From the NCBI RefSeq assembly GCF_001592305.1, contig NZ_BCWR01000003.1, forward strand, positions 1 through 64,000: DNA of 64,000 bases, written 5' to 3'. The notes beneath the pieces are model-generated. The model was not told where the DNA came from. It saw nothing but the letters and a program-made list of their open reading frames with translations, and did no database searches. Every line of letters begins with the position of its first letter. Within the stretch, counting starts at the first letter, position 1. Position numbers and translations under genes: made by a program. This DNA is from Hydrogenophaga taeniospiralis CCUG 15921 (lineage in GTDB: Bacteria > Pseudomonadota > Gammaproteobacteria > Burkholderiales > Burkholderiaceae_C). Below are positions 21,025 to 34,329 of this stretch, piece after piece.

Positions 21025-21420
21025 ATGACACCCTCTCGAACACTCGCCGCCCTGCTCGCGGCCCTCGCCCTGACCGCTGGCGCCGCCATGGCCGCCGGGC
21101 CGGCAGAGGCCCCCGGCCGCCAGTTCATGACCGAGCAGGAGCAGGCCGAAATGCGCATCCGCATGCAGAACGCCACCACCGAGGAAGAACGGGACCGCAT
21201 CCGGGCCGAAGAGCATGCGCTGATCCGCGAGCGCGCCGCGGCCCAGGGCATCACCCTGCCCGAGACCCCGCTCTCGCAGGGTCAGGGTGCGGGTCAAGGT
21301 GCAGGTCAGGGTCCTGGTGCTGGCCCCGGTACTGGGGCAGGCGCAGGTACCGGTGCTGGCACCGGGCCCGGTGCTGGCGGTGGCATGGGCAAAGGTCCAG
21401 GCCGCATGAACAACCGCTGA
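21025..21420 (+). CDS. Small secreted protein with charged helix and Gly-rich tail
   Basis: This 131-residue protein has three parts. They are a signal peptide (ALLAALALTAGAAMAAG), a highly charged helical segment of a type I have seen in betaproteobacterial periplasmic proteins (EQEQAEMRIRM, EEERDRIRAEEHALI, ERAAAQGITLPE), and a low-complexity tail of Gly with Gln, Ala, Thr and Pro. No catalytic motif is seen. An AAGGAG ribosome site lies 5 bases before the ATG. It is divergent from the response regulator and followed 22 bp later by a second Gly-rich secreted protein. The charged segment could act as a stress or metal sensor, but I cannot assign a function. Confidence 0.75.
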   Translation: MTPSRTLAALLAALALTAGAAMAAGPAEAPGRQFMTEQEQAEMRIRMQNATTEEERDRIRAEEHALIRERAAAQGITLPETPLSQGQGAGQGAGQGPGAGPGTGAGAGTGAGTGPGAGGGMGKGPGRMNNR

Positions 21421-21442
21421 GCAAGCCCACAGGCTGCACGCC

Positions 21443-21838
<396 letters not shown>

Positions 21839-21890: not shown

Positions 21891-22262
21891 TCAACGCGAA
21901 CCGGGCCGCCCGGCAACGTCAACCGGTGGTGCGGTTTCCGGCACGTACACCATGCTGCCGTCCTTCATGCGGTACGCCACCCCCGCCTTCATGCCCTGGC
22001 CTTCGCCGATCTGTCCGGACGACTGGTATTGCTTGAGCTCATTGCCCTGCTTGACCAGCATTTCCATGTTGGGCTTGCCGGCGTTCTTGATGACCAACAC
22101 GTCCTGGGTAGCGAACGGATTCAGCGGGTTCTCCACCACGGCCATCAGCAGCACGGCGATCACCACCAGAAACACGTCGATGATGTTGACCACCGACAGG
22201 ATCGGGTCGTCCTCGTCCGAGTCACCCAGAATGTCGAGCTTCATGCGTCGGGCATCAGACAT
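21891..22262 (-). CDS. DUF2149 family membrane protein
   Basis: This 123-residue protein has one N-terminal membrane helix (NIIDVFLVVIAVLLMAVVENPLNPF) placed like that of ExbD/TolR, and a small periplasmic domain with a conserved K-Q-G-x-E-L-KQY-SSG-IGEGQG-KAG-AYR-DG pattern. DUF2149 proteins are found next to CobN-like chelatases and MotA/TolQ/ExbB channels, as here. By position and topology it probably replaces ExbD as the partner of the channel protein encoded just upstream. The ATG at 22262 overlaps the end of that gene by 8 bp; an in-frame TTG at 22280 is less likely. It is the last gene of the 14-gene minus-strand run. Confidence 0.88.
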   Translation of the reverse strand: MSDARRMKLDILGDSDEDDPILSVVNIIDVFLVVIAVLLMAVVENPLNPFATQDVLVIKNAGKPNMEMLVKQGNELKQYQSSGQIGEGQGMKAGVAYRMKDGSMVYVPETAPPVDVAGRPGSR

Positions 22263-22770
22263 GGGCCACGTCTCCCGCAACGGTGGCGCCGCAGGCGGGC
22301 AGGGCCCGCAACAAAGCGTTGAGCTCTTCCATCAGCCAGCGCCTGCGCACGGTTTGCACCACGAAGGTGATGGCCGCAGCCAGCAGCGCCACGATCACCG
22401 CGGCAAAGGCCACCACCAGGTTCTCGGCCATGCCCTTCGTGTTGCCCGCGGCCACCGCCACCAGCGCCGGCCCCATGGGAATCATGGTGGCCACCAACCC
22501 CAGCATGGGGGCCACGCGGCTGACGATGCGCTGCACCTCCAGCTGTTTCAACACATGCAGCTCCAGCCCATCCTCACCCAGGTGGGCGTGGCGCTGCCAG
22601 TAGCGGTGCAGTGGCCGCAGCCCGTGGGGCCGGCGCGTGCGCGCCAGCAGGTCGATGCTCACCTGCCCCAGGCTGAACAGCGCATACACGAACATCAGAC
22701 ACAACAGCACCAGCACGGGCGTCAGGAAGAACTTCGAAATCTCGTACAGGAAACTCTCAATGGCATTCAT
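22255..22770 (-). CDS. MotA/TolQ/ExbB-family proton channel protein
   Basis: This 171-residue inner-membrane protein has three hydrophobic segments (about 15-35, 92-112 and 118-142) and the family core RIVSRVAPMLGLVATMIPMGPALVAVAAG. It would form a proton-motive-force-driven channel with the DUF2149 protein encoded next. Its ATG overlaps the stop codon of the CobN-like gene (ATGA), so the two are translationally coupled. This is a second energiser in the same operon, distinct from the ExbB/ExbD pair upstream, and its pairing with CobN and DUF2149 mirrors the end of Hmu-type loci. Confidence 0.88.
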   Translation of the reverse strand: MNAIESFLYEISKFFLTPVLVLLCLMFVYALFSLGQVSIDLLARTRRPHGLRPLHRYWQRHAHLGEDGLELHVLKQLEVQRIVSRVAPMLGLVATMIPMGPALVAVAAGNTKGMAENLVVAFAAVIVALLAAAITFVVQTVRRRWLMEELNALLRALPACGATVAGDVAHV

Positions 22771-25700
22771 GGTTGGGCTTTCAGTGAAACAGGGGGCGTG
22801 AAGCGGACGGTGCGGCGGGCGCGCCAGGTCTGGAACAGCATCCCGGCGAGCACGATGGCCGCGGCCATCCAGCCGTAGATCCAGATGAGCTGCTGGACCG
22901 GGGTGTCGTGCCGCATTTCGCGCAGCTCCTGCCCGCGCACGGTGGGTGGCTCGGGTGCCGACGGAGGGTTCTGGGGCACATCGGGTGGCCGGGCGGCAGC
23001 TGGCCTGGGCACGGCGGGTGGGCTCGATACGCGCGATGCTGCCGCCTGGCTGGCCAGCCCAAAGCCCTGCGCCAGCTCGTTCACGTAGGCCTTGAACGTG
23101 TCGTTGGCGGTGAACACGTCGTGCCGGGCCGCCACCTCCTGGTAGACCTGCACCAGCTCGCGCTTGGTCTGTTCGTCGGCCTTCCAGTAGTCCTTGCGGA
23201 TGGCTTCCAGCATGCGCTCGGCCACCTGGGCCAGCGCCGTGGGGTTGGATTTTTCGAACCATTCGCGCATGCCCAGCTGGTAGCGGTCCTTGACGTAGGT
23301 CTCGTGAAATGCCTGCCACTGGTCGTCGCGCACCACGTTGCGGTCCATCACCTGCCAGCCCCAGAAGTTGTTCACCGTGTTGAGCATCTGCAGCGTGCCC
23401 GCGTAGCCTTCTTTCTGCATCTCCTTCATCCAGTTGGGATGCTGGTAGACCGAACGCAGCTCGGTGGCCATGAACCGCTCCGCCGTCTCCAGCCTGGCCT
23501 TGTTCGGGTCGCGCATGTTGGAGATGTAGAGCTGCGGGTTCTGGCCGTCCAGGAACTTCACCGCCTTGGAGATGCCGCCCAGGTACTCGAACGGATGGTC
23601 GGTGTCCAGCAGGCCGCGCAGGTTGCTGGAGCGCGAGAACACGGCTGCGTTGGTGCCGCGCAGGTGTTCGGCGTAGACGTTGATCTCCTGGCCCTTGCCG
23701 TCGGTGAGCTTGCGGCTCCAGTTCGCGGTGTTGGGGCCGTAGGCCCAGGACATGCGCGACAGGTAGAGCCGTTCCAGCTTGCCATCGCCATCGTCCCAGG
23801 TGTCGGACGCCAGCGAGGCGTCAGTGAGCTTGGTGCTGTAGTCGCCGCTTTCGTTGCCGAAGACCCGCGTCAGCGCGAACTCGCGGGCGTCCTCGGGCTT
23901 TACCCCCTGGGACAGCAGCGCGGCCTGGATGCGCTCGGTGTTGGCCTTGATGAAGTTCTGCTGACCGTCTTCCTTCAAGGCCGCCAGCATGACCACGGCT
24001 TCGTTGAAGCGCTCCATCACATTCGGGAACTGGTCGCGGTACAGGCCAGTGAGCGAGATCACCGCGTCGATGCGGGGGCGCCCAAGTTCCGCCTGCGCAA
24101 TCACCTCCATGCCCACCACGCGCCCGCCTTCGTCCCACTGGGGTTTGACGCCCATGGCGTAGAGAATCTGCGCTTCCAGCATGCCCAGATGGCGCATGGT
24201 CTCGGTGCTCCACATGGAGAAGGCCAGCTTCTCGGGGAACTTGCCGTGGGTGGCCTGGTAGCTGGTGATGAGCTGCTGCACCGCCTGGCGCCCCGCCTCG
24301 TAGGCGGCACGCGTGGGCACACGCCCGGGGTCGAAGCCGTACAGGTTGCGCCCGGTGTGCAGCGCGTCCGGGTTGCGGATCGGGTCGCCCCCGTAGGACG
24401 GGTCGATCCAGCGTGCCGACAACCCCCGGCTCACCCCCTCGATCTCCCAGGCCGCCCGCAAGTCCACCAGGAACTTGCGCCCGCGCAGCGCCAGCGCGCG
24501 CAGCTGTGTGTCGGTGAGCTCGTCCACCGGCCGGTCGGAGAACACGTAGTCCTCCACGAAGCGATAAGGCCGGGTCTGCTGCAGCGCCTGGTAGTCGCCC
24601 TTGAACGCGGCCTTCGCGTTCTTCACGCCGGTCTGTTCGTACAAGGGCTGGCCCAGCATCTGCATCACGTTGCTGATGAGGTGGGCACGCTCGGCGTCCT
24701 GGCCCAGGGTGTGCAGCCCCAGCGGCTGCATGGCCGAACCCAGGTCTTCCAGATAGTCCTCGATGTCGCGCAGGAACTTGTCGAAATTCCGCGCCAGGTC
24801 GGCCACCTGCCAGGCCATGTCCTTGTGCATGTTCATCTTCACCGCCTGCTCGATGATGAGCTTTCGGTTGTTGTCCTTCACCAGCCCGCTGTCCAGCGAC
24901 TGGTACTCGCGGATCAGGTCGTTGATCTTCACGAAGTCGTCGGACAGACCGGCCGGCGCGAACGCGGGCGTCTGGTGGCTCACGATCACGCCGCGCCCGC
25001 GGCGCTTGACGTGGATGGCCTCGGCGATGTTGTCCACGATGTACGGGTACACGATGGGCGTGTTGCCCACCAGGATGTTCGGGTCGTCATACGCCCACAG
25101 GCCGCGCTCCTTGCCGGGCGTCCACTCCTGCGTGCCGTGCGTGCCGAAGTGCACGATGGCGCTGGCCTTGAACTGCTCGCGTGCCCACAGGTAGGTCGCC
25201 ATGTAGAAGTGGTTCAGCGGCACCTTGGTGTCGTGGAACAGCTTCTTCTCGTCGTGCTGCCCGGCGGCGCTCTCGCTGCGCATGGGCTGCGGCAGCACCA
25301 CGAGCTTGCCCAGCTTCATGCGCGGGATCACGAAGCCGGTCACGCCATTCTTTTGGGCGATCCAGACGCTCTGGTCGGCCGTGCCCCAGAACTGGTTCAC
25401 GGTCTGGCGCACCTCGGGCGGCAGCGTGGCAAACCAGCGCTGGTAGTCGGCCAGCGGCAAAAAGTCCCAGTGCGCCGTCTTCATGAGTTCCGGCAGGGTG
25501 CCGGGGCGGTAGCCCGGGCGCAGCATCTGGCCCACGGAGGCAATGATGTCCTTCTCGCTCGTGCTGTCAAAGGCATAGCCCTCGGCCTTGAGCTGCGCCA
25601 CCAGGTGCTCGATGGAACGCGGCACGTTCAGGTTGGAGGCGCCCTGGTTCTTTTCTCCCGGCGGGTGGTTCCAGAAAAACAGCGCCACCCGCTTGTCGGC

Positions 25701-26948
25701 ATTGGCCGTGGTCTGCAGGCGCGCCAGGTTCACGGCCTTGCCCACCAGCATGTGCATCTGCTCGGGCATGGGCACCAGTTCACCGCCCTCGTTGGCGGTC
25801 AGCACCACCGGGTCCTGCAGGCCGATGTACTCGGCGTTCGTCAGCGTGAACGGCAGGTAGAAGCTGTTCACGCCCACGGTGTCCTTGCGGTACTCGGCAC
25901 GCGTGCCGCTGCGGTAGGAGAGCACGTTGATGACCGGCACCCCCATGGCCTTGTGCCAGGCCTTGCGCGCCTCGGGGTCCACACCCAGGAAGGTGTTGAC
26001 CAGCAGCACCTGCGGCAAGACCCGGCCCTCGTGGGTGATGAGTGGCTCGTTCACGGCCACGGCCGCGATCTCCCTGGGATTGGGAAAGCCAGCGCCCTGC
26101 TCGGCCGCCGCGGGCGCCCCGCTGGCGCCAGCCGCCACCGGGCGCCCGCCGCCACCGCCGCGCGGCGGACGGTCGGTGGCTTCGGGCTGGCCCGTGGCCG
26201 CCGCCTCACGCCCTGCGCGGGCCACGCGCGAGCTGCGGTAGAACATCAATGGCAGGGCACCGGCCTGCTCGATGGCCTGCACGGTCTCGTCCAGCATGCG
26301 CTGCTGACCGTCCGAGATGTAGCTGGACGACGTCTCGATGCCGATCACCGGCAGGCCCTGCCAGGGGCGACCCGCCCTGGCCTCCCACCACGCCAGGTAC
26401 TGCGGCAGTTGCTCGAACACCAGCCCGTCGTGGCCGGGGTGGTAGATGCCGCCATTGGGCAGCGCCAGCGGTGGCGCGATGGCGCCCAGGTCGCCGCCCT
26501 GGAGGATGGCCTGCAGGCACTGGAACAGCCGCTGGTGGTTGATCCGCGTGCCGCCCACGTAGTAGTCGAACACGCGCTGCGCCTGTTCCTTGTCCATGTG
26601 GATGGCACGCAGGCGCACCGGCGGACTCATGACGTTGATGCTGGCGGTGGGCAGGCTCAGCTCGCGCAGCCGCTGGCCGGCCACGCGCTCGATCTGCGCC
26701 TGATCGTCGCTGCGCGGCGCGTCGATCAGCACGAAACGCGCGCCTTCGAGCACACGCCGCGCGCCGGCCTCGCCCTCGACATCCACCTGCGTCCACGCGA
26801 GCTCGACGCCCTGTTCCCTGGCCACCGCTTCCATGAGCTTGAACTTGCGCTCCAGCACGAACTTTGTGGAGAGGATGGCCACCTTGTCCGCGGCCTGCGC
26901 CCAGGACCCCACCAGCGCCAGCAGGGCGCACAAGAAGAGACGTGTCAT
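22767..26948 (-). CDS. Exported CobN-like chelatase with C-terminal membrane anchor (HmuS-like)
   Basis: This 1393-residue protein is homologous to CobN/BchH, the large subunit of cobalt and magnesium chelatases. Recognisable core segments are FFWNHPPGEKNQGASNLNVP, IVHFGTHGTQEWTPGKERGLW, PYIVDNIAEAIHVKRRGRGV and LAFSMWSTETMRHLGMLEAQIL. Unlike cytoplasmic CobN it has a signal peptide (MTRLFLCALLALVGSWAQA) and a C-terminal membrane helix (LIWIYGWMAAAIVLAGMLF, about 1345-1365) with a short basic tail, so the body should lie in the periplasm. An extra Gly/Pro-rich insert (PPRGGGGGRPVAAGASG) lies near residue 260. No CobS/CobT motor genes adjoin it. Bacteroidetes HmuS proteins share this layout and are linked to removal of metal from haem. 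Here it could strip or insert a metal in a tetrapyrrole; the substrate is unknown. Confidence 0.85.
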   Translation of the reverse strand: MTRLFLCALLALVGSWAQAADKVAILSTKFVLERKFKLMEAVAREQGVELAWTQVDVEGEAGARRVLEGARFVLIDAPRSDDQAQIERVAGQRLRELSLPTASINVMSPPVRLRAIHMDKEQAQRVFDYYVGGTRINHQRLFQCLQAILQGGDLGAIAPPLALPNGGIYHPGHDGLVFEQLPQYLAWWEARAGRPWQGLPVIGIETSSSYISDGQQRMLDETVQAIEQAGALPLMFYRSSRVARAGREAAATGQPEATDRPPRGGGGGRPVAAGASGAPAAAEQGAGFPNPREIAAVAVNEPLITHEGRVLPQVLLVNTFLGVDPEARKAWHKAMGVPVINVLSYRSGTRAEYRKDTVGVNSFYLPFTLTNAEYIGLQDPVVLTANEGGELVPMPEQMHMLVGKAVNLARLQTTANADKRVALFFWNHPPGEKNQGASNLNVPRSIEHLVAQLKAEGYAFDSTSEKDIIASVGQMLRPGYRPGTLPELMKTAHWDFLPLADYQRWFATLPPEVRQTVNQFWGTADQSVWIAQKNGVTGFVIPRMKLGKLVVLPQPMRSESAAGQHDEKKLFHDTKVPLNHFYMATYLWAREQFKASAIVHFGTHGTQEWTPGKERGLWAYDDPNILVGNTPIVYPYIVDNIAEAIHVKRRGRGVIVSHQTPAFAPAGLSDDFVKINDLIREYQSLDSGLVKDNNRKLIIEQAVKMNMHKDMAWQVADLARNFDKFLRDIEDYLEDLGSAMQPLGLHTLGQDAERAHLISNVMQMLGQPLYEQTGVKNAKAAFKGDYQALQQTRPYRFVEDYVFSDRPVDELTDTQLRALALRGRKFLVDLRAAWEIEGVSRGLSARWIDPSYGGDPIRNPDALHTGRNLYGFDPGRVPTRAAYEAGRQAVQQLITSYQATHGKFPEKLAFSMWSTETMRHLGMLEAQILYAMGVKPQWDEGGRVVGMEVIAQAELGRPRIDAVISLTGLYRDQFPNVMERFNEAVVMLAALKEDGQQNFIKANTERIQAALLSQGVKPEDAREFALTRVFGNESGDYSTKLTDASLASDTWDDGDGKLERLYLSRMSWAYGPNTANWSRKLTDGKGQEINVYAEHLRGTNAAVFSRSSNLRGLLDTDHPFEYLGGISKAVKFLDGQNPQLYISNMRDPNKARLETAERFMATELRSVYQHPNWMKEMQKEGYAGTLQMLNTVNNFWGWQVMDRNVVRDDQWQAFHETYVKDRYQLGMREWFEKSNPTALAQVAERMLEAIRKDYWKADEQTKRELVQVYQEVAARHDVFTANDTFKAYVNELAQGFGLASQAAASRVSSPPAVPRPAAARPPDVPQNPPSAPEPPTVRGQELREMRHDTPVQQLIWIYGWMAAAIVLAGMLFQTWRARRTVRFTPPVSLKAQP

Positions 26949-26949
26949 C

Positions 26950-27672
26950 TCAGGATTCCTTGAATTCGTAAGCAATGGGAATGCGCAACTGCGCCACGCG
27001 ACCGGGCTGGTGCGTGGCGCGGACCAGATCCGCGGCCTGGCGCACCAGTTGCAGCGCAGCCTCGTCCAACGCCTTGAAGCCCGAGCCGCTGACCACGAAG
27101 CAATCCAGCAACTCGCCCTGAGCGGAGAAATGCGCCTCCACCGTCACCAGGCCCTCCTGGCCCATGCGCCGCGCCACCATGGGGTATTGCTTGTGCTTGA
27201 GCAGTGCGGCTTCCAGCAGACCTTCCCAGCGCGCCTGCTGCGCCGCCGGCGGGTTGGCGCTGGGCGGTGCGGGCGCCACCACCGCCGGTGTGGCGGCGCG
27301 AGAGGCTTCGGTGTTCACCGTCGCCACGGGCGCGGCCGGGATCACCGTGTCGGCGGCCGTTGCCACGGCATCGGAGTAGGGCTGGATGCTCGGCGTGACC
27401 GTTGGCGCGGGCGGCTGGGGCGCCGGCTGTGCACGGGCGGTGGGCTGTGGTTGGACCTCTGGCGGCGCAGGGACTGGCGATGGCGGTTGGACTGCCGGCT
27501 CGGGCGGTTGCTCCGCCGCCCACTGGATGGCCATGTCCAGCCGCGTGGACGGCGGGATCGGCGCCGGGCTGTGGGCCACCCCCCAGGCGAGGGCCGCGAC
27601 CAGCGCGGCATGCAACACGACCGAGCGGCCCCAGTCGTGCCAATGCAGGCGGTGTGAAGCCATGGTGTTCAT
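26950..27672 (-). CDS. tonB: TonB energy-transducing protein
   Basis: This 240-residue protein has one N-terminal membrane helix (SVVLHAALVAALAWGVA), a long Pro/Ala/Gln-rich periplasmic spacer (about 38-145) and a C-terminal TonB domain. That domain contains YPMVARRMGQEGLVTVEAHF and the GSGFKALDEAAL stretch. It couples the ExbB/ExbD motor encoded upstream to the two TonB-dependent receptors of the same operon. Its ATG overlaps the exbD stop codon (ATGA), and only one base separates its stop codon from the CobN-like start. Confidence 0.93.
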   Translation of the reverse strand: MNTMASHRLHWHDWGRSVVLHAALVAALAWGVAHSPAPIPPSTRLDMAIQWAAEQPPEPAVQPPSPVPAPPEVQPQPTARAQPAPQPPAPTVTPSIQPYSDAVATAADTVIPAAPVATVNTEASRAATPAVVAPAPPSANPPAAQQARWEGLLEAALLKHKQYPMVARRMGQEGLVTVEAHFSAQGELLDCFVVSGSGFKALDEAALQLVRQAADLVRATHQPGRVAQLRIPIAYEFKES

Positions 27673-28034
27673 GAGCGCTTGACCTCCAGGCTGACCTGCT
27701 GGAAGCCCAGCGACTTGACCCTGTCCACCAGTTCCACAAAGCTGCTCAGCGCCAGGCGCCCGTCGGCGCGCACCACCACCGGCGTGCTGCGCGGCTGCGG
27801 GTCGAGTGCCGCCGCCAGGTCGCTCACCGGCTGGTCGTTCAGGTACAGGGTCTGGTGTTGCGTGAACGTCAGCACCAGTGGCGCGGTGGGGGAAGCCACC
27901 GCAGACCTGGCGACCGCCAGGTCCACGGGTATGCGCCCGTTCACCACGAAGGTGGCCGTGGTGAGCACGATGGTGAGCAGCACCAGCATCACGTCCACGA
28001 GGGGCACGACGTTGATGTCGTCGATGTCGTCCAT
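27669..28034 (-). CDS. exbD: ExbD/TolR-family biopolymer transport protein
   Basis: This 121-residue protein has a single N-terminal membrane helix holding the proton-pathway Asp (PLVDVMLVLLTIVL) and a small periplasmic domain ending in FVELVDRVKSLGFQQVSLEV. With ExbB it forms the motor that energises TonB. It lies 7 bp after exbB and overlaps tonB by 4 bp, forming a compact exbB-exbD-tonB unit. Confidence 0.93.
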   Translation of the reverse strand: MDDIDDINVVPLVDVMLVLLTIVLTTATFVVNGRIPVDLAVARSAVASPTAPLVLTFTQHQTLYLNDQPVSDLAAALDPQPRSTPVVVRADGRLALSSFVELVDRVKSLGFQQVSLEVKRS

Positions 28035-28041
28035 GGCGCCG

Positions 28042-28467
28042 TCAGCCCCCGTGGGCCTCGTCGAAGTCCGTCAGGCGCTCTCGCACGCGGCGGCGCAAGG
28101 CGTTGTTCAGCGCCACGCAGGGGATCGCGACCACGATGCCCGCGGCCGTGGCCTTGAGCGCCAGGGCCAGCCCGGTCATGATGGATTTCACGTCCATCTC
28201 GCCGGTGGCGCCCAGGGTCTGGAAGGTGAGCATGATGCCCAGCACCGTGCCCAGCAGCCCGAGGTAGGGCGCGTTCGAGGCCACGGTCCCGATGACGTTC
28301 AGGCGCCGCGTGAGGTCGCTCTCCAGCCGGGCGCGGCTGGTGTAGCCACGCGCATCGATCCGGCGGAAAAAGCGCTGCCGCTCCAGTGCGATGGCCACCA
28401 CCGCCACGCTGAGCAGCAGCAGGATGCCGAACACGGCGTATTCCACGAGGGGGCGAAGTCCTTGCAT
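28042..28467 (-). CDS. exbB: ExbB/TolQ-family proton channel protein
   Basis: This short (141-residue) ExbB has three membrane segments. Its family core is VASNAPYLGLLGTVLGIMLTFQTLG, then MTGLALALKATAAGIVVAIPCVALNNAL, where the conserved Thr/Ala of the proton path are visible. It lacks the long N-terminus of standard ExbB, as in the ExbB type-2 energisers that accompany dedicated TonB systems. It starts 9 bp after the second TonB receptor, so receptor and motor are coexpressed. Confidence 0.92.
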   Translation of the reverse strand: MQGLRPLVEYAVFGILLLLSVAVVAIALERQRFFRRIDARGYTSRARLESDLTRRLNVIGTVASNAPYLGLLGTVLGIMLTFQTLGATGEMDVKSIMTGLALALKATAAGIVVAIPCVALNNALRRRVRERLTDFDEAHGG

Positions 28468-28476
28468 GGAGCCTCC

Positions 28477-30777
28477 TCAGAACCGCAGGGCCAGCCCGAC
28501 GCGCCAGACACGTCCCGGGTCGACGGTGATGGACATATCCTCGGCGTTGTACCGGCCGTCGTACCGGAAGTTGGTGGCATAGCTCTGCGAGTCGTTGGTG
28601 CCGCGGGCGATGGTGTAGTGGCGCTTGTCGAACACGTTGTCCACCCGCACGAAGGCGCTCAGCCTGGCCCCGCTGAGCCAGGTGGTCTTGCGCCCGTAGT
28701 CGGCCATCAGGTTGAACACCGTGCGGCCCGGCCACTTTTCCTGGTTGATTTCGTCGGCCCAGGCCGTGGCGCGGTAATCGAGTTCGGCCGACAGCTTCCA
28801 GGCCGGGTCCGGCTTCCACGACGTGCGCAGGTTGACGGCATGGGGCGGCACGCGGGGCACCTTGTTGCCGGTGTTGTTGTAGGGCACGAGCTGGTAGCAG
28901 TTGTTCCAGTTGGGGTTGGGGCCCATGCAGGCGCCGGTGCCGACCAGCGTGCCGCGCGGATTGCCCAGGGCCTGCAGGAACTGGTCGTACCGGGTGAAGG
29001 TCGAGTCCAGGTAGGTGTAGGCCAGGTCCCAGCTCCAGGCCGGCGAGATCGAGGACTGCAGCGCCAGCTCCAGGCCACGCGAGCGCGCCCCGCCGATGTT
29101 TTCGTACCGTGCGATGTTGGCCGCATTGCCGTTTGAATACTGGCCGTTGGTGTCCAGGATGAAGTCCTTGCGGTCGATCTGGAACACCGCGGTCTGCAGG
29201 CTGGCCTCACGGTCCAGCAGCGTGAAGCTCTTGCGCATGCCGACCTCGAAGTTGATGGCCTGCTCCGTCTTCAGGTCGGGGTTGTTGGCCACGCTGCCCG
29301 AGGGGTTCTGGCTGCCGCGGTAGAGCTGGTCCACCGTGGGGGCGCGAAAGCCGGTGGAGATGTTGCCGAACAGCACGGTGTTGGCCAGGCCGCTCCAGCT
29401 CAGGCCCAGGCGCGCGCTGTCGGCATCGAAGCTTTTGCGTTCGGCGATGGCGGAATTGCCGTTGCCGGACACCGGCTGGGCGTCGTAGTCGAGCTCGATG
29501 CGGTCGTGGCGCAGGTTGCCGGTCAGCGTCCAGTCCGTGGCCAGACGCCACTGGCCTTCGCCATAGAGCGCCTGCACGTTTTCGCCGGTGCGGTCGTCGG
29601 TGAACACGGTGCCTGCCGCCGTGGGCCTTTCCATGGGGCTCGGGCTGTTCCTGTAGCCGACCATGGCATGGGTCTGGTTCAGGTACTCGTTGCGCTTGAT
29701 CTCCACCCCGCCCATCCAGGCCATCGGACCCGTGGTGGTGCGCAACTCGCTCTTCACGCCGCGCTGGGTCTGGTGGTAGTCGTTGAACGTGGTGTAGGCG
29801 TCGGGGCTGGAGACGGGGGCACCGGTGGAGCTGAAGCGTTGCGGTGCCGACCAGAACTGGGTGTGATCCCGGTACTGGTAGGCCAGCGCCAGCAGGTTGG
29901 TGTGGTCGGACAGGTCGTTGGAATAGGTGAGGTTCACACGCTCCAGGTCCACGTCGAAGTGGCGCGCGTAGTCGCGGCCCAGCGTGCCCCTGGGGTCGAG
30001 CGCGGCCTGCGTCACGCCGGTCACGGTGCCGTGCTTGTCGCGAAAGCGGTCCTCTTTTTCCAGGCCCAGGGTCAGGTCGGAGTGGCCATTCAGCAGCCAG
30101 CGCAGGTTGCCCGCGAGCGCCTGGGACTTGTAGTTCGACTGGAAGTGGTAGTCATCGGCCTTGCGCTGGGACAACTGCAGGTGGCCGGACCAGTTGTCGC
30201 TCGCGCGGCCGATGCGCGCCAGCTCGCGCTGGTAACCATAGGCCCCCACATCGGTCTCGACGGACACGCCTTTGTGGGTGGCGCCACGCTTGGTGGTGAT
30301 GATGACCGCGCCAGCGAGCGCGTCCTCGCCGAACAGGTAGGACGCGCCGCCTTTGATGACCTTGATGCTCTCGATGTTGTCCAGGTTGATGTTGACCTTG
30401 CCGGTGCGCTCGAACACCGGCACGCCGTCGATGACGATGGCCACGCCCGGCTTCTCGCCCATGTACCGCTGGTTCTCCACACCGCGGAACTTGATCTTCA
30501 GGTCGTCCCCACCCTGCGTGTCGATGGTCACGCCCGGAATGGCCTTGAGCACCTGCACCAGGTTATCGGCATGCTGTGCCTCGATCTCGCGCCCGGACAG
30601 GCTCACCGTGCTGGTCGGTTCGCGCGTGCTGTCGCCGAAGCGGTCGTCGATGGTGGAGCCGGTCACGGTGGTCTGGCGCAGGGTCTGCGTCGGGGCCGGG
30701 CCGGTCTGCGCCCAGGTGCCCGGGGCGGCCAAGGCCGCGACGGCGGCGGCCAGGAGGGTTTTTTGGGTGGTCTTCAT
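28477..30777 (-). CDS. TonB-dependent outer membrane receptor of unknown substrate
   Basis: This 766-residue receptor has a signal peptide (ending PGTWAQ), a plug domain (about 40-165, with VLKAIPGVTIDTQGGDDLKIKFRGV, GVAIVIDGVPV, IKVIKGGASYLFGEDALAGAVIITTKRG) and a 22-strand-type barrel ending in F (VGLALRF). FRAP (near 477) and NPDL (near 500) boxes occur as in haem receptors, but the His usually found between them is absent. It sits directly before exbB-exbD-tonB and the CobN-like gene, which suggests a metal-tetrapyrrole or other metal-chelate ligand. No TonB-box identity or substrate can be read with certainty. Confidence 0.9.
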   Translation of the reverse strand: MKTTQKTLLAAAVAALAAPGTWAQTGPAPTQTLRQTTVTGSTIDDRFGDSTREPTSTVSLSGREIEAQHADNLVQVLKAIPGVTIDTQGGDDLKIKFRGVENQRYMGEKPGVAIVIDGVPVFERTGKVNINLDNIESIKVIKGGASYLFGEDALAGAVIITTKRGATHKGVSVETDVGAYGYQRELARIGRASDNWSGHLQLSQRKADDYHFQSNYKSQALAGNLRWLLNGHSDLTLGLEKEDRFRDKHGTVTGVTQAALDPRGTLGRDYARHFDVDLERVNLTYSNDLSDHTNLLALAYQYRDHTQFWSAPQRFSSTGAPVSSPDAYTTFNDYHQTQRGVKSELRTTTGPMAWMGGVEIKRNEYLNQTHAMVGYRNSPSPMERPTAAGTVFTDDRTGENVQALYGEGQWRLATDWTLTGNLRHDRIELDYDAQPVSGNGNSAIAERKSFDADSARLGLSWSGLANTVLFGNISTGFRAPTVDQLYRGSQNPSGSVANNPDLKTEQAINFEVGMRKSFTLLDREASLQTAVFQIDRKDFILDTNGQYSNGNAANIARYENIGGARSRGLELALQSSISPAWSWDLAYTYLDSTFTRYDQFLQALGNPRGTLVGTGACMGPNPNWNNCYQLVPYNNTGNKVPRVPPHAVNLRTSWKPDPAWKLSAELDYRATAWADEINQEKWPGRTVFNLMADYGRKTTWLSGARLSAFVRVDNVFDKRHYTIARGTNDSQSYATNFRYDGRYNAEDMSITVDPGRVWRVGLALRF

Positions 30778-30823: not shown

Positions 30824-33118
30824 TCAGAACTTCAGGTTCACGCCCGCGTACAGCGTGCGGCCCATGCCCGGCACCGCCGTGCCCCACTGCGGGTAGTTGG
30901 GCAGCATGGGGTTGCTCATCGTGGTGCCCTGGCCGACGTAGGCGCCGCCCGTGGGCAGGAAGTACAGCCGGTCGAACAGGTTCTCGATGCCGAAGTCCAG
31001 CCGCACCGTTTTCCACGAGTAGCTGCCGCGCAGGTGGACCAGCCCGTAGCCCGGTGTCCGGATTTCGTTGCGCACCGATGACACGGTGGTCTTGGCCTTC
31101 ACCGCCACCAGTTCCAGGCTGTTGTCCCAGCCGCCGGTCTTGTGGGTCAGCACCAGCTTGCCGTTGAGCGGCATCACGTTGTAGAGCCCGTCGCCGGTGT
31201 CGAGGTTTTTCCCGTGGGTGACGTTCAGCAGGCCCTTGAGGCCCCAGTCACCCAGCGTGTTGGTGGCCAGCGGTGCGTGCCCGGCCAGGTCCACGCCAAC
31301 CAGGCGCGCGGTCTGGTTGGTGTAGCGCAGCACGCTGAACTTGTTCCTCACCGGGGTTGCGACGGCCTGGTTGGTGGTGGCGTCCCACTGGACCGCGTCG
31401 ATGTAGTCGCTGACGCGCGTGTAGTACGGCGTGGCCTGGAAGCCCCAGGTCTTGTCGGTGGCGTGCCAGTCGAACGTGGCGGACAGCGTGTTGGCCTTCT
31501 CGGGCTTCAGGTCGAGGTTGCCGACGTAGCCGTTGCCGTCGCCCACGAAGTTGTTCATCAGCGCAGCCATCTGCCAGGTGGACCAGGGGAAACGTTCGTA
31601 GACGTTGGGCGAACGCTCCTTGTGGGCAAAGCCGAACTCGATGTCGACCTGCTCGCTGGCGGTGTAGCGCGCCAGGGCCGTGCCATCGACGTTGGTGTCG
31701 GTCGAGCGGTGGTCGCGGGCGTTGAAGGCGTTGGCGTCGCGGGCCTGGAAGCCCATGCCGGCCGGGTTGTAGCCGACCGCGCTGCCAGCGTTCATCGCCA
31801 CCCGCTCCACACGCGCACCGACCAGCGTCATCCACTGCGCGCTCGGTCGCGACTCCCATTCGCTCCAGAGCCCGGTGCGGTCGCGCTCGCCGTCGCGGAT
31901 GTTCCAGAAGGTGCCGGGGTACATGCCACCGCCCGAGGGCGTCCACCAGTCGTTGATGCGGTAGCGCTGCAGGTCGATGCCCGCGCGCAAGCGGTCCTGC
32001 TCGCTCAGCGGCAGCTCGCCCTTGACGCTGAAGCCGGTGGTCTTGCCCTCGGTGAACATGGGCATGCCAGCGGCGCAGCTGGCGCTGATGGGGCTGCAGG
32101 GGGCGCCGTTGACCACCATCGGTCCGCCCGATCCAAGGCCGTACCAGTAGCGCTTGTCGGCGCCGAAGTCCATGAAGTGGTCCACGGTCTCGTGGTAGAC
32201 GCGCGCTTCCAGCGTGCCCCAGTCGAGCTGGCCGGTGTAGCTCAGGTTGATGCTCTTCTGGTCGTTGTCGAGCAGGTCCATGCGCTGATTCGGGTAGAGC
32301 TGGTAGGGCATGTCCTGCACCCCCAGCTTCGCCTCGAAGAGGTGGTTGTCCTGCTTGAAGGCCAGCCCCAGGGTGTGGTTGCGCGTCTCGTAGGCGGTGG
32401 AGCCCACTTCGTCGCGCGCCAGCGTGTGGCCCGGCCGGCCGGTGAAGTCGTAGGTCTTGAAGTCACCGCCCGCCGAGGTGTTGTCGGCCTGGCTGGTGGC
32501 GCCGCTGTAGTTGACGTTGAGCTGCTCGGTGGCCAGGGTGGCCGAGAGGTTCAGGCCACGCGCGCTGTTGTTGCTGCGGTAGAAGGCGCCCACCTCGCCG
32601 CGGCGGATGGTGGCTTCACCCGGTTGCGCAAATTCGGGCGCGCGCGTCTCGGCCAGGATGCTGCCGCCGATGCTGTCGCCGCCGGCGCTCACCGGCGAGA
32701 TGCCGGCGTACACCTTGAGCGAACCCAGTTGTGTGGGATCGATGTAGGAGAGCGCTGGATTCATGTGGTTCGGGCAGGAGGCGATCAGGTCCATGCCATC
32801 GACCTGGATGCGCAACCGGTCGTCGGCCAGGCCGTGCATCGAAGGCAGGCTGGACACGCCACCCGCCCCATTGAGGCTCACACCGGGGATGTCCTGCAGC
32901 AGGCGGGCGGTGTCGCTGGTGGCCGCCCGCTGCGCCTGCAGGCTGGCCGGGTCCACGGGGGTGGCGCCGGGCAGCGCGTCCTGGTCGGCACGGACGGTCA
33001 CGGTCGGCAAGGTGCTGACGGCGGCGTCCTGCGCCAGCGCCTGGCTGCACAGCAGGCTCAGCGCGGGCATGGCCAGCGCCATGGCGCGGTGGAGATGGGA
33101 CGCGCGAAGTTCGGTCAT
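30824..33118 (-). CDS. OprC/NosA-like copper TonB-dependent receptor
   Basis: This 764-residue receptor has a signal peptide ending SQALAQ, a plug and a barrel ending LYAGVNLKF. The plug contains MDLIASCPNHMNPALSYIDP, with Cys115 and Met119 forming the CxxxM half of the copper site known in Pseudomonas OprC. The barrel part contains HFM (His314, Met316), matching the HxM half. The segments SPNVYERFPWSTWQMA and GNGYVGNLDLKPEKAN are also OprC/NosA-like. It should import copper across the outer membrane. It follows a PCuAC chaperone gene by 57 bp and is followed by a second receptor and a dedicated TonB motor. Confidence 0.9.
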   Translation of the reverse strand: MTELRASHLHRAMALAMPALSLLCSQALAQDAAVSTLPTVTVRADQDALPGATPVDPASLQAQRAATSDTARLLQDIPGVSLNGAGGVSSLPSMHGLADDRLRIQVDGMDLIASCPNHMNPALSYIDPTQLGSLKVYAGISPVSAGGDSIGGSILAETRAPEFAQPGEATIRRGEVGAFYRSNNSARGLNLSATLATEQLNVNYSGATSQADNTSAGGDFKTYDFTGRPGHTLARDEVGSTAYETRNHTLGLAFKQDNHLFEAKLGVQDMPYQLYPNQRMDLLDNDQKSINLSYTGQLDWGTLEARVYHETVDHFMDFGADKRYWYGLGSGGPMVVNGAPCSPISASCAAGMPMFTEGKTTGFSVKGELPLSEQDRLRAGIDLQRYRINDWWTPSGGGMYPGTFWNIRDGERDRTGLWSEWESRPSAQWMTLVGARVERVAMNAGSAVGYNPAGMGFQARDANAFNARDHRSTDTNVDGTALARYTASEQVDIEFGFAHKERSPNVYERFPWSTWQMAALMNNFVGDGNGYVGNLDLKPEKANTLSATFDWHATDKTWGFQATPYYTRVSDYIDAVQWDATTNQAVATPVRNKFSVLRYTNQTARLVGVDLAGHAPLATNTLGDWGLKGLLNVTHGKNLDTGDGLYNVMPLNGKLVLTHKTGGWDNSLELVAVKAKTTVSSVRNEIRTPGYGLVHLRGSYSWKTVRLDFGIENLFDRLYFLPTGGAYVGQGTTMSNPMLPNYPQWGTAVPGMGRTLYAGVNLKF

Positions 33119-33175: not shown

Positions 33176-33691
33176 TCAGTGGTGCACGTGCCCGGGCGCG
33201 GGGCGGCGGGGGGTCTGCACCCAGACCATCACTTCGCGCTCCCCCGCACGCTCGAAGCGCAGCGTGAGGGGGAAGCGCTCGCCGTCCTGGAGCGGTGCCT
33301 TCAGCTCGAACAGCATCAGGTGGTGGCCGTTCGGCGTGCCGTGGCGCAGCTGCAGCTCGCTGCGGGCCGGCAGCGCCAGCGCGGGCACGGCGCGCATGCG
33401 CATGACGTCGCCGTCCATCCGCATCTGGTGGATCTCCACGCGTGCCGCGACGGGCGTGGTGGCCGAGAGCAGGCGGTCGGCCTGCACACCGGGGTTCCTG
33501 AGGGTGCGGAAATACACCGCGCCGGTCTTGAGCCCTGGCACGCTGGGCGTTGCATAGGGGTGGTCGATGCGCAATTCGCCGGCCTTGAAGTCGTGCGCCA
33601 GGGCTGCGCCCATCGCCGCGCACAAGGCCCACGCGCACAGGGCCTTGCGCGCCCGTTCCGAGCGCCTTCGGAGCGGCCGGGTGGCGCTCAT
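33176..33691 (-). CDS. PCuAC-type periplasmic copper chaperone
   Basis: This 171-residue exported protein (basic N-terminus, then ALCAWALCAAMGAALAH) belongs to the PCu(A)C/DUF461 family. The copper-binding pattern is visible as His88-X10-Met99 and His124-X-Met126, with extra Met (90, 92, 97), and the C-terminus ends in PGHVHH. Such proteins bind Cu(I) in the periplasm and deliver it to the CuA or CuB site of cytochrome oxidase. Its ATG overlaps the stop codon of the Crp/Fnr-like gene, so chaperone and regulator are coupled. It is more divergent than the second copy at 34853-35341. Confidence 0.9.
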   Translation of the reverse strand: MSATRPLRRRSERARKALCAWALCAAMGAALAHDFKAGELRIDHPYATPSVPGLKTGAVYFRTLRNPGVQADRLLSATTPVAARVEIHQMRMDGDVMRMRAVPALALPARSELQLRHGTPNGHHLMLFELKAPLQDGERFPLTLRFERAGEREVMVWVQTPRRPAPGHVHH

Positions 33692-34329
33692 GCGGCCGCT
33701 CCCAGCGGTGTCGCGTTGGCCGCCCAGGCCGTGGTCAGGCGCCCGGGGGCAACGCCCGACCAGTCGCGCACGGGGCGCACCGGCCCGGGCTTGCGGCTGC
33801 GCGGGGGCAGCAGTTGCGCCAGGGCGCGGCACACGGTTTCGGTCTTCGCGTCGACCACCTGCGCCACCTCGCGCAGGGTGGGCAAGGCGTCGCGAATGGC
33901 ATCGGCCTCTCCGTTCAGCGCCCGCCGGTCGGGCCGCCAGTCCAGGCCCATCAGGCACAGCAGATGGGTGATGCGCTGGGGCACGCTGCCGGTGCGCAGG
34001 GCGGTCATGTCTTCGCTGCGGTCCTGGTGCTGCAGCAGGGCCTGCTGCAGCAACGGCACGCGCAGACTGTCGGCGTCCAGCGCCATACGCTCCAGACGGC
34101 AGGCGGTGAAGGCGGTGGCGCTGAACTGGTAGCGCCGCTCGCACAGGGATTCGACGCCGATCAGGTCACCCGGCAGGGCGAGCTGCACCGGCTGGCGGGT
34201 CGGACCGCTGTCGCGGTCGAGGCGAACGATGCCTTCCAGCACGCGCCACACGGGGCCGGCTTCACCGGCGAAAAAAACGGACTCGGCCTTCACAAAGGCG
34301 CGCGCGTCCACACGGACGGAAGGGGTCAT
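33688..34329 (-). CDS. Crp/Fnr-family transcriptional regulator
   Basis: This 213-residue protein has an N-terminal cyclic-nucleotide-binding-like beta-roll (GPVWRVLEGIVRLDRD, LALPGDLIGVESLCERRYQFSATAFT) and a C-terminal helix-turn-helix (ALPTLREVAQVVDAKTETVCRALAQL). The N-terminal Cys cluster of FNR is absent, so it should not carry an Fe-S cluster of that type. Two Cys (in ESLCERR and FTACRLE) could serve in metal or redox sensing, which is speculative. A good AGGAG site precedes the ATG at 34329; longer readings upstream are rejected. It lies inside the copper run and is translationally coupled to a copper chaperone, so copper- or redox-responsive control of this operon is the natural guess. 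Confidence 0.85.
   Translation of the reverse strand: MTPSVRVDARAFVKAESVFFAGEAGPVWRVLEGIVRLDRDSGPTRQPVQLALPGDLIGVESLCERRYQFSATAFTACRLERMALDADSLRVPLLQQALLQHQDRSEDMTALRTGSVPQRITHLLCLMGLDWRPDRRALNGEADAIRDALPTLREVAQVVDAKTETVCRALAQLLPPRSRKPGPVRPVRDWSGVAPGRLTTAWAANATPLGAAA

Follow-up and report, generated by a model that had tools for sequence, protein, structure and literature searches.

A candidate proton motor for a CobN-like enzyme in a TonB-type operon of Hydrogenophaga taeniospiralis

RESULTS

We analyzed a minus-strand operon of Hydrogenophaga taeniospiralis CCUG 15921 (assembly GCF_001592305.1) within a window that comprises positions 1 to 64,000 of contig NZ_BCWR01000003.1. In transcription order, the operon encodes two TonB-dependent receptors, ExbB, ExbD, and TonB, a CobN-like protein, a short MotA/ExbB-type protein that we call MotA2, and a protein of the DUF2149 family (Table 1). 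An initial annotation of this DNA had recognized two different MotA/ExbB-type systems in one operon, and Pfam searches recovered every gene that it named on the minus strand. The interval that it gave, 22255-28467, omits the DUF2149 gene and both receptors, which are members of the operon. It had also described MotA2 as translationally coupled to the CobN-like gene and not to tonB. That coupling is literal, in that the stop codon of one gene and the start codon of the next share ATGA. The CobN-like gene, however, is in turn a direct neighbor of tonB, its ATG following the tonB stop codon 1 nucleotide (nt) later. Furthermore, exbD and tonB overlap in another ATGA, and the DUF2149 gene starts 8 nt before the end of the MotA2 stop codon (an 8-nt overlap). 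Because every junction is tight, including the one between tonB and the CobN-like gene, gene spacing in this genome alone cannot separate the two motors, and it is the comparison across loci that carries the argument.

Table 1. Features of the operon and its surroundings in the window
Feature	Coordinates	Strand	Remarks
TonB-dependent receptor 1	30824-33118	-	Heme/copper-receptor-like, below family cutoffs
TonB-dependent receptor 2	28477-30777	-	Nearest TonB-hemin family TIGR01785, below cutoff
exbB	28042-28467	-	PF01618, 1.6e-29; ExbB2 type, TIGR02805 above cutoff
exbD	27669-28034	-	PF02472, 5e-21
tonB	26950-27672	-	PF03544
CobN-like protein, 1393 aa	22767-26948	-	PF02514, 5.7e-286; HmuS/BtuS clade
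HFGTHG motif of CobN-like protein	25134-25151	-	Second His, aa 604 (25137-25139), aligns with HmuS His538
C-terminal transmembrane helix of CobN-like protein, aa 1353-1371	22836-22892	-	Basic tail after helix, cytoplasmic by positive-inside rule
CobN-like stop/MotA2 start overlap	22767-22770	-	ATGA; start codons set from sequence
MotA2, 171 aa, HmuU equivalent	22255-22770	-	PF01618, 2e-5, weak but above curated cutoff
MotA2 Thr95	22486-22488	-	Transmembrane residue
DUF2149 protein, 123 aa, HmuV equivalent	21891-22262	-	PF09919, 2.4e-27
DUF2149 Asp29	22176-22178	-	Transmembrane residue
PCu(A)C copper chaperone and regulator	33176-34329	-	Upstream of receptor 1
Two tandem small open reading frames	21025-21838	+	Converge on operon end

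The MotA2-DUF2149 pair is tightly linked to CobN. Across an even sample of the phylum (398 genomes), DUF2149 occurred in 17 genomes and CobN in 134, and all 17 of the former were among the latter (P 4.5e-9), with the two genes on the same strand throughout and mostly no more than 0.5 kb apart. MotA2 adjoined DUF2149 in 105/105 loci of a census that is uneven in its sampling, since 80 of its loci are best matches to the window, and CobN lay on the same strand in 98 of them (79 with cobN first, 19 with cobN last). One further locus runs off a contig edge, leaving six real exceptions, each with CobN elsewhere in the genome. In genomes where the pair is set apart, all five complete window-like CobN proteins examined had the C-terminal helix, versus none of five B12-type CobN proteins. 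Genomes with two CobN-like proteins of the clade also have two MotA2-DUF2149 pairs (G368, with loci L024 and L031; Azonexus, L082). No CobN-DUF2149 gene fusion was found in the loci; a read-through frame at L068 carries MotA2 and DUF2149 signals only.

The pair also diverges together with CobN. Given the receptor, the partial correlation between MotA2 and CobN across 77 loci was 0.87, while that between MotA2 and the receptor given CobN was 0.05; DUF2149 gave 0.83 with CobN versus 0.02 with the receptor, a contrast that is inflated by the greater noise of receptor distances. In addition, exbB-exbD-tonB has come to lie beside an intact cobN-motA2-DUF2149 set in about five layouts, including one on a Thermodesulfobacteriota plasmid. 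It precedes cobN in the window, L036, and L037, follows DUF2149 in L041 and L042 (in two orders), precedes the receptor in L057 and L074, and follows a cobN placed last in L118 and, with gaps, in L019. Repeated recruitment of this kind would be unlikely had MotA2-DUF2149 already served the receptors. Finally, of 14 comparison genomes, only that of Methanosarcina acetivorans contained DUF2149 (PF09919); it also contained PF01618 and PF02514, and neither the TonB-receptor barrel PF00593 nor the ExbD family PF02472. This archaeon has no outer membrane, and so no TonB receptors are expected in it. The archaeal case draws on family presence at the genome level and on a published account (PMC10100974) rather than on gene adjacency.

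The CobN-like protein has a hydrophobic signal or anchor at its N terminus, and its best match in the PDB was 9D26, the heme dechelatase HmuS of Bacteroides thetaiotaomicron (7e-123), which ranked above CobN and ChlH. In a tree of 58 sequences, 35/35 DUF2149-associated CobN-like proteins, including HmuS of Bacteroidota, were separated from 23 cytoplasmic CobN and ChlH proteins by a branch with 100% support in the approximate likelihood ratio test (SH-aLRT). The C-terminal transmembrane helix was present in 88/92 CobN-like proteins linked to DUF2149 and in 0/19 CobN proteins of genomes without DUF2149, these 19 sequences being the basis on which the converse, an anchored CobN without DUF2149, was assessed. 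Among the 88 helix-bearing proteins, hydropathy and the positive-inside rule placed the tail inside in 84, and the catalytic part therefore outside. By these predictions, the protein belongs to the periplasmic, membrane-anchored HmuS/BtuS family. HmuS His538, which is essential for demetallation (PMC12583661), was conserved in the alignment along with His1209 and Glu1212, while Gln1198 and Trp1202 of the propionate site were not conserved. The enzyme, which the initial annotation had treated as a chelatase homolog, is more likely an HmuS-like demetallase than a chelatase, with heme demetallation as a possible activity. It is the single CobN of the genome, in which the AAA+ partners of class I chelatases, CobS and ChlI, did not score above cutoff (TIGR01650, best 31.7 of 558.6 bits; TIGR02030, best 20.5 of 467 bits); CobT and ChlD were not searched for. 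A related copy in Nitrosomonas europaea (L046:5268-9366) has its CobN-like gene in three separate frames, reflecting either decay or sequencing errors.

MotA2 is, by profile and model, a short three-helix member of the MotA/TolQ/ExbB superfamily. PF01618 was also matched by 15/15 aligned relatives, the profile resembles MotA as well, and the predicted structure has three long helices (predicted local distance difference test [pLDDT] score, 90). The first 44 PDB matches of this model were all ExbB or TolQ, with ZorA soon after, and Thr95 was invariant across the MotA2 alignment. The DUF2149 protein has one N-terminal transmembrane helix with an almost invariant Asp (Asp29 in the window, Glu in Runella), followed by a small extracytoplasmic domain that is beta-rich in a model of low confidence. 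The ExbD-like topology ascribed to it earlier thus holds for the helix, its Asp, and the small outer domain, but the domain itself is unlike ExbD, and the protein matched PF09919 only and not PF02472. A second DUF2149 subtype, with a GKLILI-type motif at the end, is paired with its own CobN subclade in L031 to L035; the examined stretches of two of these five loci, L031 and L033, are without a TonB receptor.

The surroundings of the module vary. A ChaN-type heme-binding protein (PF04187) is encoded in or beside it at 24 related loci. In eight loci (L073, L077, L081, L089, L096, L097, L100, and L104), a conserved secreted protein of this type, of ~310-330 aa, is inserted between CobN and MotA2. 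Fur-like boxes preceded 15/91 operons and Zur-like boxes 6/91, with 0.8 expected from shuffles in each case. By the window operon itself, there was no Fur or Zur box close to consensus and no cobalamin riboswitch. Other copies lie in nickel-hydrogenase or NikR neighborhoods. Because ChaN neighbors, Fur- and Zur-like boxes, and nickel-hydrogenase or NikR settings differ among copies, the module probably serves several metal complexes. On a Runella plasmid (L120), MotA2-DUF2149-CobN lies within a hyp nickel-hydrogenase maturation cluster together with a TonB receptor and a urease-accessory-like protein, a setting that suggests a nickel version of the module. The clade also splits at the position of HmuS His1209/Glu1212 into an H..E type (23 loci, including Bacteroidota HmuS and the window, with DTDHPFEYLGG) and a D..Q type (61 loci). 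The six loci that have Zur-like boxes (L027, L088, L094, L095, L109, L111) were all of the H..E type, and none of the proteobacterial loci with Fur-like boxes displayed in the box scan was on the H..E list. It is possible that this split represents a metal-specificity switch, in counts that ignore kinship.

Receptor 2 is the one kept beside exbBD-tonB-cobN in the close relatives L036 and L037, which have one receptor only. Receptor 1 is partly copper-receptor-like (TIGR01778, below cutoff), and upstream of it are genes for a copper chaperone of the PCu(A)C type and for a regulator with a cyclic-nucleotide-binding domain; this group may represent a distinct copper cassette that became attached to the operon. 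At the other end, the two small open reading frames have signal-peptide-like starts and Gly-rich repeat tails. In Azospira oryzae (L074:8846-9463), a gene for ribosomal protein S4 (PF00163/PF01479), perhaps a metal-stress paralog, stands between CobN and MotA2.

DISCUSSION

Our results are consistent with an operon for the acquisition of a metal-tetrapyrrole or similar metal complex that would run on two separate proton-driven motors. ExbB-ExbD-TonB would power the outer-membrane receptors. MotA2, which by analogy with ExbB and TolQ is predicted to form a pentamer, and DUF2149, a bitopic protein with a transmembrane Asp that is predicted by similar analogy to dimerize, would make up another motor of the stator type, one reserved for the periplasmic, membrane-anchored demetallase. 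Specifically, we picture the C-terminal helix of the CobN-like enzyme docked on MotA2, in the way that the TonB or TolA helix sits on ExbB or TolQ. Proton flow would set DUF2149 and the mobile domains of the enzyme in motion, resetting the enzyme and releasing the product. The chemistry itself would need only the enzyme and a reductant, while the motor would be used for opening, resetting, and product release. Given the genomic linkage, clade restriction, and co-divergence, along with the repeated arrival of exbBD-tonB and the receptor-less archaeon, the division of labor that the initial annotation proposed between receptors and enzyme is well founded as far as the partners go, and on this sequence evidence it is likely that MotA2-DUF2149 is partnered with the CobN-like protein. 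That proton-motive force performs work on the enzyme is something we infer. A proton-powered mechanical drive is plausible, and we regard the full statement, partnership together with drive, as reasonably probable.

CobN and ChlH rely on cytoplasmic, ATP-driven AAA+ partners, which are out of reach of a periplasmic CobN. MotA2-DUF2149 would substitute for CobS/CobT or ChlI/ChlD, pairs that depend on cytoplasmic ATP. This replacement, which had been put forward for CobS/CobT from the window alone, is made plausible by the missing CobS and ChlI. A broader proposal is that a dedicated MotA/ExbB proton motor, acting on an extracytoplasmic enzyme of the same membrane, is a third way to power a CobN-type chelatase, both in bacteria and in archaea that lack an outer membrane, and is the first such stator to have a catalytic cycle as its load. 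We advance this wider claim tentatively.

Previous experiments on HmuS bear on what such a motor might do. Its activity is ATP-independent, NADH-dependent, and located in the membrane fraction, and recombinant truncated HmuS, without its anchors, demetallates heme without a partner and stops after 1-2 turnovers (PMC12583661). Because the truncated protein works alone for so few cycles, it is more likely that the motor serves turnover rather than chemistry. In addition, HmuS is stimulated far more by native P. gingivalis inner membrane than by E. coli membrane (PMC13227078).

Yet, a number of observations weigh against the model. Solo conversion of heme by truncated HmuS implies that the motor is unneeded for the chemistry, which weakens any strict version in which it drives the reaction. 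The role of the enzyme itself is disputed, since protoporphyrin IX continues to be formed in a double mutant of B. fragilis in btuS1 and btuS2 (PMC6460266). Proton conduction by MotA2 is not assured, because the last-helix polar residue expected of ExbB-type channels is Ala, not Thr, in beta- and gammaproteobacterial members. An ExbD/TolR fold for the periplasmic domain of DUF2149 is likewise unsupported: hhalign against ExbD aligned only 19 transmembrane columns, and a search of the PDB with the domain, whose model is of low confidence, returned no match. At five Cupriavidus-type loci (L053, L056, L060, L067, L110), the order is resistance-nodulation-division (RND) transporter-MotA2-DUF2149-ChaN, and the receptor and CobN are gone in cis, although these genomes do carry a membrane-type CobN at another site. 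(Related Cupriavidus keep RND-receptor-CobN-MotA2-DUF2149, with ChaN next in several.) Within a CobN distance of <2, the contrast in co-divergence between CobN and the receptor is 0.72 versus 0.33. Finally, the literature searched offers no experiment on MotA2 or DUF2149.

In print, HmuU and HmuV have been assigned to energizing the HmuR receptor (PMC10100974, PMC12583661) and PA1924 to energizing the receptor PA1922 (PMC4542158, PMC8456098). By the same reasoning, MotA2-DUF2149 would be an equivalent of ExbBD that relies on a TonB from elsewhere to energize a TonB-dependent receptor. In favor of this view, MotA2 genuinely belongs to the MotA/ExbB superfamily, and receptors usually share the operon. 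However, in the window as in other lineages, the operon includes a complete exbBD-tonB set, while some neighborhoods have no receptor (L031, L033, L090, L121) and M. acetivorans has neither a TonB receptor nor ExbD. Furthermore, co-divergence with the receptor vanishes once CobN is accounted for. The published assignments were made from annotation or expression, and the cited papers contain no experimental test of HmuU, HmuV, or PA1924 as proteins. We consider energization of the receptor by this pair improbable.

Within a partnership with the CobN-like protein, the main alternative is that the pair acts not as a mechanical motor but as a channel or carrier by which, for example, the metal ion that is released, protons, or the porphyrin would cross the inner membrane. 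HmuTUV has been proposed to transport heme across that membrane (PMC13227078), a permease-like extra protein (HmuT, DUF2162, or urease-accessory-like) often adjoins MotA2 in Bacteroidota, Trichlorobacter, and L019, and many MotA2 proteins lack the last-helix Thr. Nevertheless, a three-helix MotA/ExbB protein with a bitopic partner bearing a transmembrane Asp has the architecture of a stator motor, neither the window nor most proteobacterial loci yielded an HmuT or DUF2162 homolog, and FeoB is thought to carry iron in Bacteroidota (PMC12583661), leaving transport an unlikely function. Alternatively, the pair could be a scaffold or assembly factor that conducts nothing, in which case membrane association alone would explain both the co-divergence and the stimulation by membranes. 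A passive anchor would need neither the transmembrane Asp of DUF2149 nor Thr95 of MotA2, but both are kept almost without exception in distant members, and we find this explanation very unlikely.

The component families are known. Their assignment to a CobN-like enzyme and the work proposed for them are new as far as shown by the literature searched, with most subscription papers outside that search. If the proton-motor model is correct, it would identify the energy source for anaerobic heme demetallation in gut Bacteroidota and for the Zur-controlled system of Pseudomonas, account for the poor turnover of isolated HmuS, and extend MotA/ExbB motors to a new kind of work. It would also revise the treatment of HmuU/HmuV and PA1924 as helpers of outer-membrane receptors, which the comparative evidence contradicts.

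MotA2-DUF2149 corresponds to HmuU-HmuV of Bacteroidota and to PA1924-PA1925 of Pseudomonas. Like HmuS-HmuT-HmuU-HmuV of the hmu operon, the window combines homologous CobN-like, MotA/ExbB-like, and DUF2149 proteins with a TonB receptor, and a Bacteroides plasmid has the gene row HmuY, receptor, CobN, HmuT-type protein, MotA, and DUF2149. Equivalents of S, U, V, and the receptor of hmuYRSTUV are present in the window cluster, where no HmuY is annotated and no HmuT homolog was detected; unlike the hmu operon, the window has exbB-exbD-tonB inside the operon and does not keep Gln1198 and Trp1202. The Zur-regulated PA1922-PA1925 cluster of P. aeruginosa similarly encodes a receptor, a CobN-like protein, and two small genes, one of them annotated as an energizer (PMC4542158, PMC8456098), but as described it contains no exbBD-tonB, and no Zur box close to consensus was found by the window operon. 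With CobN-CobS-CobT and ChlH-ChlI-ChlD, the window protein shares the catalytic-subunit domain PF02514 and the equivalent of His538, whereas its predicted periplasmic location, membrane anchor, separate clade, and genome without CobS and ChlI set it apart. Finally, MotA2-DUF2149 resembles the ExbBD-TonB, TolQR-TolA, MotAB, and ZorAB stators in joining a MotA/ExbB-fold subunit, nearest in its model to ExbB/TolQ and then ZorA, to a bitopic partner with a transmembrane Asp. It differs from them in the soluble domain of DUF2149, which is not ExbD-like, and in its proposed load, which would be an enzyme at the outer surface of the membrane that holds the motor.

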